Assembly: GCF_031312535.1 (NCBI RefSeq) | Contig: NZ_CP133594.1 | Location: 744,001-808,000 of the forward strand | Length of the DNA: 64,000 nt | Direction: 5' to 3' | Origin: Methanolobus mangrovi | Lineage (GTDB): Archaea; Halobacteriota; Methanosarcinia; Methanosarcinales; Methanosarcinaceae | Shown here: in pieces, positions 25,179 through 51,182 of the stretch | Numbering within the stretch: the first letter of the stretch is position 1 | Layout of the letters: each line of letters opens with the position of its first letter | Notes under the pieces: generated by a model | What the model saw: the letters and a program-made list of their open reading frames with translations, nothing else | Told to the model about the DNA's origin: nothing | Database searches by the model: none | Translations under genes and position numbers: made by a program

Positions 25179-27926
25179 TCATAGCGTTGTATCAATGTCT
25201 GCTTCTTCCAGAACCTGAGAAAGCTGGTTAAGTATCTCTTCCATCCTGTCTATCTCCTCTCCATATCCAGCCCAGTCGCCTTCAGCAAGATAGTCCTGTG
25301 CTTTGTTGTAATGATCCAGGGCTTGCTGTGCAAGTTCTCGTGCTGTTCCTGGTATATATGGCTGGCCAGTTTCGTCCTGCACATCGATTCTGCCTTCAAC
25401 AAGCATTTGCAGTGATTCCTGCAGATCCTCAGCCATAACAACCTTCTGTCCTGATGAAACCACAACTCTCCTGAGTTCAGGTATCTCGGACTCTTCGGCA
25501 CTTATGAATATAGGCTCGGTGTACAATATCGAATTACCAATCGGTACCACCAGCAAATTACCCCTTATGACCCGGGAACCTGTCTGGCCCCAGAGCGTCA
25601 GCTGTTCGGAAATATCCGGGTCCTGATCTATCCTGGATTCAATCTGGGTAGGTCCGTATATCAGTTCTCCTTTTGGCAGTTCATAATGTTTGATCTCACC
25701 GTAATTCGGCTCATCACATCTGGCTGCGATCCAGGCGATCATATTCTCCCTGTTTCGGGGTGTGAAGGGCTGCAGTAATACATATTCCAGTCCGCCACCG
25801 TTAGGGAGTTTTGTGATCATGTAATAGGGTTCCATTTCAATACTACTTCCGCGGTAGACCTCATTTGGAATTTCCCATGCATCCTCTTTGTTATAAAAAG
25901 TCTCAGCATCTGTCATGTGATAGTTCTCGTACAGGTCCATCTGAACCTTAAAGAAATCCTTTGGATAGCGGATATGCTCCTTCAGGCCTTCAGGCATCTC
26001 ACTGAAAGGTTTGAACAGGTCTGGGAATATCTTTGAATACGTATTTACCACAGGTTCATCTTCCATAACATAGAAGTCAACAGTCCCATCATAGGCATCT
26101 ACAACAACTTTGACGGAATTTCGGATATAGTTGATATCATAGAATTTAGTCCCGTAGTAGCTTTCAGAATATGGATACTTATCAGCCGTAGTATAGGCAT
26201 CTATTATCCAGTACACTTTTCCGTCAGAGATCACAGGATACGGGTCACTGTCATACTTAAGGAACGGAGCTATCATTTGTGCTCTTTCTTCGATCTGTTG
26301 ATGATACATCAAACGTGAACTATCATCTACATATTCACTCAGGATGAATTTAGATTCGCCAAAAGTGAATGCAAAGATCAGTCTTTTAACAAACGAATCG
26401 AGAACTATTCCACTTTTACCTTCATATTGTGTGAATACGTTCTGTCCTCCCTTTGGGTAGTCGAATTCTTCTTTTCCTGAATCTGCTATTTTATAGTCAT
26501 TTGTGACCTCTCCATAATAGATCCGGGGATTATCAACATCGAATTCACCTGTCGGCGGGATATCCTGCAAAACAAATTCAGGTCTGCCATCACTTGTCTT
26601 GGTACTTACCGGATTCATCACAATTCCAAAACCATGGGTATAGACCAGACGTTCATTTACCCATGTTTTAGCTTCAGGTGCCAGTTGCATGGTATCCAGT
26701 TCCCTGGCTGATATCATGTATTGTTTATAGCCGTCGTCCATCTGGTACCTGTCAGTGTCAACATCATTGAACGTATAATATGTTCTGATCTGCTGGAGTT
26801 GCTTGTAGGTTTGCTCAAGAGCTCGCCGGTCCCATATTCTTATGTTCTCAGTAATCTGGGTATTATTTTCCAGTTCTGACAGGGTCAGATCAGTATTGGC
26901 TTGGAAAGGTCTTTCTTCAATATCCGATAGGCCAAAGGCCATTCTTGTATAATTTATGTTATATTCCAGATACGGTTTTTCCAGCTGGATCTCAGTGGGT
27001 TCCACTTTGAACTGCTGGTAAACATCCGGTACAAAAGAGCTGCCCATGATAAACAATATTAACAGAACTATACTGGCGATTGGTATCTTTATGTTCTTCA
27101 GTTTTACATTTGCCAGTAAAGCAACAGCAGTCAGGAATGATAATATTGTAAGTATATTGAATATTGGAAGTCTTACATGAACATCCGTGTAGCCTGCACC
27201 TGATACTACTCCCTGCTGTGAGAACAATATCTCATATCTGTTGAGGAAAAATCCGAAAGCAATTAATGCAAACAGAAATGCAAGCAATGTTGATATGTGG
27301 ATAAGGACCTTAACGGGCAGGTCATCCAGTATATCCTTTACACTATTTGTCGGATACAGGAAGTAAGAAGATTCAATATTGTCCGTTTCAACTGTTTTTG
27401 ATCTGAATATGGGTTCAAGTCTGATCATGTAGAGGATCAGGACCATTATGAGTGAAATAACGGTGAGTATCAGGAATACGCCCCTTATCATATGAATGAA
27501 CGGGAGCTGAAATACATAGAACCCTACGTCATTCATTAGAATAGGGTCAGTTATTCCAAACGATGTGCTATTCAGATAAAGGAGAATTGTTCTCCAGTTG
27601 CTGCTGAATGCCAGCCCGAAAATGAATGAGAATGCTGCGATTACTATTAAAACAACCTGAGAATCTATCTTATCATATGTGAGTTTCCTCTCAGCAAGTA
27701 TCTTACTGATGGAATTACCTGCAAACTTTGCATTTATGTAAAGGAAGGCAAAAGCAAGTATGAATCCAGGTATGATCGCAATTAATTTCCATTGTAATAT
27801 TGTTGTGAACACGGACGTATATCCGATCATATCAAACCACAGATAATCAGTATAAATTCCCACAAGGGGTCCTATACCCAAAAAAAGTGCCAGAATTAAA
27901 AAGAAAATTATTCTTATATCTCTCAT
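25179..27926 (-). CDS. UPF0182 family integral membrane protein
   Basis: A 915-residue protein. The N-terminal third (about 1-300) has seven or so membrane helices, beginning RIIFFLILALFLGIGPLVGIYTDYLWFDMIGY, a UPF0182 signature. A large extracytoplasmic domain follows, containing RIWDRRALEQTYKQLQQIR, YTHGFGIVMNPV and the C-terminal ALDHYNKAQDYLAEGDWAGYG. The length is normal for the family. The function is unknown despite its wide occurrence in bacteria and methanogens. GGGGT precedes the start, and a 55-codon lipoprotein-like reading frame lies 10 nt upstream on the same strand. Confidence 0.92.
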   Translation of the reverse strand: MRDIRIIFFLILALFLGIGPLVGIYTDYLWFDMIGYTSVFTTILQWKLIAIIPGFILAFAFLYINAKFAGNSISKILAERKLTYDKIDSQVVLIVIAAFSFIFGLAFSSNWRTILLYLNSTSFGITDPILMNDVGFYVFQLPFIHMIRGVFLILTVISLIMVLILYMIRLEPIFRSKTVETDNIESSYFLYPTNSVKDILDDLPVKVLIHISTLLAFLFALIAFGFFLNRYEILFSQQGVVSGAGYTDVHVRLPIFNILTILSFLTAVALLANVKLKNIKIPIASIVLLILFIMGSSFVPDVYQQFKVEPTEIQLEKPYLEYNINYTRMAFGLSDIEERPFQANTDLTLSELENNTQITENIRIWDRRALEQTYKQLQQIRTYYTFNDVDTDRYQMDDGYKQYMISARELDTMQLAPEAKTWVNERLVYTHGFGIVMNPVSTKTSDGRPEFVLQDIPPTGEFDVDNPRIYYGEVTNDYKIADSGKEEFDYPKGGQNVFTQYEGKSGIVLDSFVKRLIFAFTFGESKFILSEYVDDSSRLMYHQQIEERAQMIAPFLKYDSDPYPVISDGKVYWIIDAYTTADKYPYSESYYGTKFYDINYIRNSVKVVVDAYDGTVDFYVMEDEPVVNTYSKIFPDLFKPFSEMPEGLKEHIRYPKDFFKVQMDLYENYHMTDAETFYNKEDAWEIPNEVYRGSSIEMEPYYMITKLPNGGGLEYVLLQPFTPRNRENMIAWIAARCDEPNYGEIKHYELPKGELIYGPTQIESRIDQDPDISEQLTLWGQTGSRVIRGNLLVVPIGNSILYTEPIFISAEESEIPELRRVVVSSGQKVVMAEDLQESLQMLVEGRIDVQDETGQPYIPGTARELAQQALDHYNKAQDYLAEGDWAGYGEEIDRMEEILNQLSQVLEEADIDTTL

Positions 27927-50559: not shown

Positions 50560-50792
50560 ATGTTATTATAACATTATTAATATAAATGACTGCTAACAAC
50601 TTTAACATTTATGTATATAAATTTATCATTTTAGTTATGTGCTCAATAAAATATGACTGTTTATTTTCTGATTTCAAAAATGCTTAGATTGGTATTTATT
50701 TTTCTTGATTTGGTGTTCCCACTACTTCTTTTTAGATTAGGTCCCAACACCTCATCATTATGATAATCATTATATAATATACTATAGATATA

Positions 50793-50800
50793 TTTATATA
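50793..50800 (+). promoter_or_regulatory. Strong TATA box preceding the structured intergenic block
   Basis: TTTATATA, in an A/T-rich stretch, is placed 20-28 bp before the first structured bases. It predicts initiation near 50821, where no protein gene follows on this strand. Confidence 0.5.
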
Positions 50801-50820
50801 GCTAAAAAATATATTAGGGA

Positions 50821-51095
50821 TTGCAGTCACACAAGCTGAAGATTCAGGCTGGCTGTACGACCATTCGGTGGTACGATATGGACTTGATTGAAAATAACTG
50901 AAGCTAAAAACGATAAAGATACACGAACGCTAACAAACCTGTCCCACATTACTCCCACACACACACGCGTCAGGTTTGTTACGTTCAGGCTTTAGTCATC
51001 ACGCTTATCTAAATATAAGATGGAGTATGAGCGACAGGGGAAATTTGTTCCTTTGAGGAACAGGGTTATTGTCATTACATTTTCCCCTTTACTTT
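50821..51095 (+). ncRNA. Candidate non-coding RNA, hairpin-rich intergenic block
   Basis: The 623-bp space between the channel and CPBP genes has no protein-coding frame I can support, but about 275 bp of it is full of stems. (1) GTACGACC/GGTGGTAC with loop ATTC at 50855-50874, one mismatch. (2) A 16-bp stem with a single bulged C: GAACG(C)TAACAAACCTG (50925-50941) with its complement at 50971-50986, loop 29 nt. (3) TGTTCC/GGAACA with loop TTTGA at 51046-51062, nested inside (4) AGGGGAAA/TTTCCCCT (51036-51043 with 51081-51088), with T-rich DNA after. A TATA box sits at the right distance upstream. G+C is higher than in the flanks. I do not recognise RNase P, SRP or a known riboswitch. Confidence 0.5.
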
Positions 51096-51182
51096 TATCT
51101 GGATTTATTGCATTTTTCTTTTTATTTTGCTGAATATGGAAATTCGATCAAGAATGAGATCATAGAATAATCACAATTTTAT

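Follow-up and report, generated by a model that had tools for sequence, protein, structure and literature searches.

The block at positions 50,818-51,095 (+ strand) of the Methanolobus mangrovi window, the whole stretch of 64,000 nucleotides analysed here (contig NZ_CP133594.1, positions 744,001 to 808,000), is almost certainly a genuine gene for a structured non-coding RNA. Judged by its sequence, the gene represents class I of a Methanolobus RNA family that has several copies per genome and a common cold-box promoter; class I is the member next to RuBisCO. As far as the published main text describes them, the cold-box sRNAs of M. psychrophilus R15 very probably belong to this same family. 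The best overall explanation, and one that we consider reasonably likely, is a stand-alone cold-induced, trans-acting sRNA gene with a C-rich loop and a ribosome-binding-site (RBS)-like P2 loop.

Locus, conservation and structure of the RNA

The flanking genes are separated by 623 bp (50,560-51,182). The G+C content of the block is 42.1%, vs 22.3% in the remainder of the gap, and no frame within it is open beyond 54 codons. Both properties had been pointed out in an earlier sequence-only reading, which proposed a candidate undescribed structured RNA without a protein frame, preceded by a TATA box. The TATA element (50,789-50,801), the 16-bp stem with its single bulge (50,925-50,941 with 50,971-50,986; bulged C at 50,930) and the nested pair ahead of a T-rich run (51,037-51,043/51,081-51,087 enclosing 51,047-51,051/51,057-51,061) were all found as described there; the conserved upstream box, which is part of the unit, had been left out. 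The features are as follows.

50,752-50,776, + strand: upstream box TCATCATTATGATAATCATTATATA, conserved and presumably the 'cold box', immediately 5' of BRE/TATA (alignment of 18-30 copies)
50,787-50,801, + strand: TATA-box promoter element GATATATTTATATAG, near-invariant across all copies
50,818-51,095, + strand: structured non-coding RNA (conservation profile, covariation, excess of G-U over A-C cells); 3' end presumably in the T-rich tract, up to ~51,135
50,822-50,857, + strand: P1 hairpin, TGCAGTC (50,822-50,828) with GGCTGTA (50,851-50,857), inner CTGA/TCAG; 96.6% of cells paired, two-sided changes in 3 of 7 pairs
50,861-50,881, + strand: P2 hairpin, loop GGTGGTACGA (50,867-50,876) followed by ATG; RBS-like element with an almost invariant loop
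50,898-50,995, + strand: P3b helix, CTGAAGC (50,898-50,904) with GCTTTAG (50,989-50,995), enclosing an AAAAACG stretch and P3a; 93.2% of cells paired, two-sided changes in 2 of 7 pairs
50,925-50,986, + strand: P3a, 16-bp helix with one bulge, GAACG(C)TAACAAACCTG / CAGGTTTGTTACGTTC (inverted repeat I6); 95.9% of cells paired, two-sided changes in 5 of 14 pairs
50,942-50,970, + strand: P3 loop TCCCACATTACTCCCACACACACACGCGT, C-rich and single-stranded, a candidate seed for pairing
51,021-51,032, + strand: box TGGAGTATGAGC, in tandem repeats in some relatives
51,037-51,087, + strand: P4 closing stem GGGGAAA/TTTCCCC around the P5 hairpin GTTCC/GGAAC (51,047-51,051/51,057-51,061); from the minimum free energy fold, terminator-like
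51,063-51,073, + strand: box GGGTTATTGTC, also present in the 5' leader of a cold-box mRNA for a zinc-ribbon-like protein in two species
51,088-51,135, + strand: T-rich tract, presumed archaeal transcription terminator (from sequence)

By plain DNA similarity, 50,790-51,095 was matched in 22 of the 27 genomes of the genus, its own counted; the best match in a relative had E = 2.8e-89, and three further related places were found in the own genome. Across nine orthologues, identity was 0.7-0.94 over most of about 50,760-51,080, lower at variable loops and linkers, and fell off again beyond ~51,080; the flanking gap had 0.2-0.6. The conserved stretch, about 50,752-51,080, corresponds to the promoter box and the RNA, and the remaining gap is not conserved. 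RuBisCO lies next to the RNA gene in at least 17 loci, the own locus included, in convergent orientation with its 3' end towards the RNA. Neither the window nor ten loci with related copies matched a family of Rfam 15 at the curated threshold, and a search relaxed to E <= 10 gave nothing better than a chance match (E = 9.4).

Folding of the block was moderately unusual on the + strand (z = -2.5; 3 of 200 shuffles were equally good) and weaker on the - strand (z = -1.7). In the predicted minimum free energy structure, P1 falls short of its full conserved length and P2 is not in its best pairing. We accept the block as a structured RNA because the comparative evidence, confined conservation together with covariation, is decisive, whereas folding alone is moderate. 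In the alignment used for the structure test (A2; 21 class I sequences; structure P1, P2, P3a and P3b), 94.6% of cells were paired, vs 24-39% in slid controls. Changes on both sides occurred in 10 pairs, vs a shuffled mean of 3.7 (none of 500 shuffles was as high; slid controls, 2-5). On a tree built from unpaired columns, the changes that preserve pairing numbered at least 13 (independent, on both sides) and 39 (on one side), so the compensatory changes proposed as a check on the earlier reading are present in relatives. The covariation is located in two helical domains, and RNAalifold recovers P1 and P3 unaided. The + strand is supported as the RNA strand, since G-U cells (55) exceed A-C cells (20); with the less stable fold of the opposite strand, this led us to reject an antisense RNA.

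The closing pair of P3b (84-194) is altered in 8 sequences. The pairing of P2 is weaker within class I. Class III paralogues re-pair it as AUGUCC/GGACAU, UGUCC/GGGCA or AUCCC/GGGAU, and the P3 stem is likewise re-paired. P5 keeps its pairing despite sequence change among relatives (GTTCC/GGAAC, GGTC/GACC, GGCC/GGCC and GTCCC/GGGAC). In the P3 loop, CACATTACTCCCAC is kept in close class I orthologues, and other classes have CCCTC-type loops. The class II C-rich loop, UUCCCUCUGCA...CAUCAUCUCUCCC, is nearly constant and parts of its stem vary, a pattern that would follow from the loop being the functional part. By eye, the class I loop (UACUCC) could form a pseudoknot with the box (GGAGUA); this pairing was set aside, as both sides are nearly invariant in close class I orthologues and it is not general in other classes.

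The family, its promoter and its relation to cold-box sRNAs

The covariance model R1, which comprises the upstream box, TATA, P1 and P2, matched all 27 genomes of the genus, with 3-11 matches each at E <= 0.01. Matches in six other genera of the taxonomic family were mostly weaker; over 186 genomes of the order, all 36 genomes matching at E <= 1e-4 fell in that same taxonomic family. The own genome contains four strong copies (794,752; 281,625; 2,406,084; 1,499,118). Since R1 includes the promoter, the weaker matches (several in the own genome, and about half of the nine at E < 0.014 in R15, which has four strong copies) include mRNA leaders.

The 25-nt upstream box is common to all aligned copies, in the own genome and in R15, and the pattern of box plus TATA had 5 matches (4 sites) in the own genome vs 0 for the reversed control. 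Transcription would start about 25 nt 3' of the TATA element, near 50,818-50,822.

In the main text of their report, Li et al. (2015; PMC5378194) described nine highly conserved cold-induced sRNAs of R15, with induction at 8 °C and a 'cold box' upstream of their promoters. They also reported an internal start at R15 position 26,651, within the gene for the sensor kinase Mpsy_0031; a product from it would retain HisKA/REC but not the PAS domains. In our genome G043, position 26,651 corresponds to about residue 664 of a 1,200-aa PAS/HisKA/REC kinase; G043 is thus R15. The R15 sRNAs and the present family share the genus, the multi-copy, highly conserved intergenic character and a conserved motif 5' of the promoter. 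We infer their identity from these traits. The published main text gives no sequence, structure or function, and R15 differs in that class I itself has no DNA-similar copy there. The term 'undescribed' of the earlier reading holds with regard to Rfam and is to be qualified by the nine R15 sRNAs, which are very probably the same family. Cold induction of the window RNA through the box is itself probable, by analogy with these R15 sRNAs. The literature searched contained nothing after 2015 on the cold box, and we found no public sequence model, structure or distribution for the cold-response family.

The RBS-like P2-loop element GGUGGUACGAUAUG also occurs at the start codons of cold-box mRNAs. 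In the own genome near 1,074,950 (L159), GGTGGTACGA-ATG lies ahead of a small zinc-ribbon-like protein gene; the leader of this gene has a cold box and, near the transcript start, GGGTTATTGTC, both there and in R15 (L158). At L160, GGTGGTACGAAA-ATG precedes a gene for a secreted-looking protein, and at L184 (G066) a P2-type element lies within the loop of a GGTC/GACC hairpin. At L182 (G033:C3:431150-431750), four copies of GGTGGYRCGRTATGAAWGCTGCW lie in tandem 3' of a cold-box promoter. Copies one to three each open a four-codon ORF (MKAA/MNAA), and the fourth provides the start of a gene whose product has a signal-peptide-like N-terminus. Cold-box promoters were also seen ahead of two conserved genes for small proteins (L150/L162 and L152/L153), one encoding MKTER... 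and the other a coiled-coil protein, neither with a Pfam family above cut-off. Five cold-box mRNA products in all were compared with Pfam, and none had a family above its cut-off.

Further RNAs or RNA-like elements were observed. A second cold-box RNA of the own genome (L151/L102; 696,471-696,750) has a 5' ATCAACAAACAT able to pair with a 3' ATGTTTGTTGAT beside the two 3' boxes, and similar 3' ends occur in several species. A short box pair GTGGAGTATGAGCGGGTTGGGGAGTGGGGGTTATTGTC with a terminator-like arm AACCCGCTC (L089; own genome, 321,214-321,260) is nearly identical genus-wide and has no obvious cold box. Two tandem copies of a possible RNA GAGCAAGG...GGTGGTACGATATG...CCTTGCTC, with the P2 element in common, lie at 1,814,136-1,814,335 of the own genome (L197/L198). 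In R15, three closely similar copies (L165-L167) are extended at the 3' side by a long stretch with abundant GTGGG/GGAG repeats. Divergent cold-box RNAs in two genera (L154, own genome; L155, R15; L183, G070) each lie 5' of a gene resembling a GMP-synthase-like amidotransferase.

Possible action on translation and alternative explanations

In the proposed mechanism, cold would act through the cold box on transcription of the class I sRNA, and the RNA might then affect translation in trans in the cold, a step to which we attach low confidence. The long P3 stem would display the C-rich loop, which could pair with purine-rich Shine-Dalgarno (SD) regions, and the P2 hairpin would display its RBS-like loop and imitate the start regions of cold-box mRNAs. 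During activity of the cold regulon, the outcome could be repression of translation initiation or competition for it. From the sequence features, we regard the chances for and against a trans action on translation initiation as evenly balanced, and SD pairing as a doubtful means of it. Against 42 start regions of window genes, the best binding of the C-rich loops fell at about -16 to -4 of the start codons. The observed energy was -4.5 kcal/mol vs -4.6 to -5.6 for shuffled class I loops. As composition-matched shuffles bind equally well, SD pairing is possible and its specificity is unsupported; we rejected an anti-SD specificity of the loops, the effect being one of C-richness only. Mimicry of an RBS by the P2 loop is suggested by resemblance. 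The AUG after the loop is missing in some class I members, and thus the sRNA resembles a start-site mimic rather than a peptide gene.

The 3' boxes GGAGUAUGAGC and GGGUUAUUGUC are short and near-invariant. Several copies carry them as tandem repeats (L025 has at least four GGTTATTGTC), and in two species GGGUUAUUGUC is also present in the leader of the zinc-ribbon mRNA; together, these observations point to a shared binding factor. One alternative, rather unlikely and drawn by analogy, is accordingly phrased by us as a decoy: the P2 loop and both boxes would bind an abundant cold-induced RNA-binding protein or the 30S subunit, which the RNA would titrate as bacterial CsrB-type sponges do. The many GUGG/GGAG stretches in R15-type copies would suit such a role, and CsrB/RsmY likewise carry short, repeated GGA-containing boxes beside hairpins. 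However, the boxes of the present family differ from these and are longer, neither box is present in class II paralogues, there is no known protein partner, and the box pair is equally explicable as a docking site inside the RNA.

A dual-function RNA or a leader remnant, in which the P2 loop is a working ribosome-binding site for a mini-ORF (MDLIENN in the window copy), seems improbable to us. Most copies do have an SD-like GGUGG followed at proper spacing by AUG, and each of the four tandem elements in G033 opens a short ORF or the downstream gene. However, the AUG is missing in L009, L011, L022 and L002, the ORFs are mostly 2-14 aa and unconserved between copies, and nucleotide changes track helices rather than codons. 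A protein-coding reading was therefore rejected, the mini-ORF not being conserved.

The sequence-only reading had also offered a trans-acting sRNA, a structural RNA or a mobile-element remnant; the first two fit. A remnant whose palindromic ends form the stems is scarcely credible: there are several copies per genome, but the gene keeps a genus-wide fixed place beside RuBisCO, with covariation and its own promoter, and its flanks contain only AT-rich, chance-like inverted pairs and no long G+C-rich, transposon-like inverted ends. Of the 51 stretches in public genomes with the exact pattern of the two 3' boxes, only one was labelled other than Methanolobus or Methanosarcinaceae; viral contigs gave no match, on which ground a viral origin was rejected.

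Comparison with known sRNAs and significance

The C-rich loops of RsaE-type bacterial sRNAs pair with Shine-Dalgarno sequences. The window RNA is alike in presenting unpaired C-rich loops of the CUCCC/CCCUC type on a stable stem. However, it is archaeal and larger, and the likeness is one of loop type, pairing specificity being unsupported beyond composition. Among the intergenic sRNAs of Methanosarcinales are sRNA154, sRNA162 and sRNA41 of Methanosarcina mazei, some of which act on translation initiation. The window RNA, which has no Rfam match, is set beside them by description, as an intergenic sRNA of the same order.

To our knowledge, there are few archaeal sRNA families in which covariation has been demonstrated genus-wide. 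The present analysis supplies a sequence model, a structure and a distribution for a putative cold-response RNA family, and ties the sRNAs and mRNAs of a putative cold regulon to a common promoter box and start-site element. We also put forward, as a speculation with the odds clearly against it, a cold regulon of RNA modules, in which one cold-box promoter would drive sRNAs and mRNAs with the common start-site element GGUGGUACGA(U)AUG and, in part, the GGGUUAUUGUC box; the sRNAs would serve as decoys or competitors that set mRNA translation in the cold via a dedicated factor. If true, this would add a new mode to the post-transcriptional control of the cold response in archaea. The family provides a concrete handle on the use of sRNAs by archaea in cold adaptation, and with it, translation control in the cold becomes testable.
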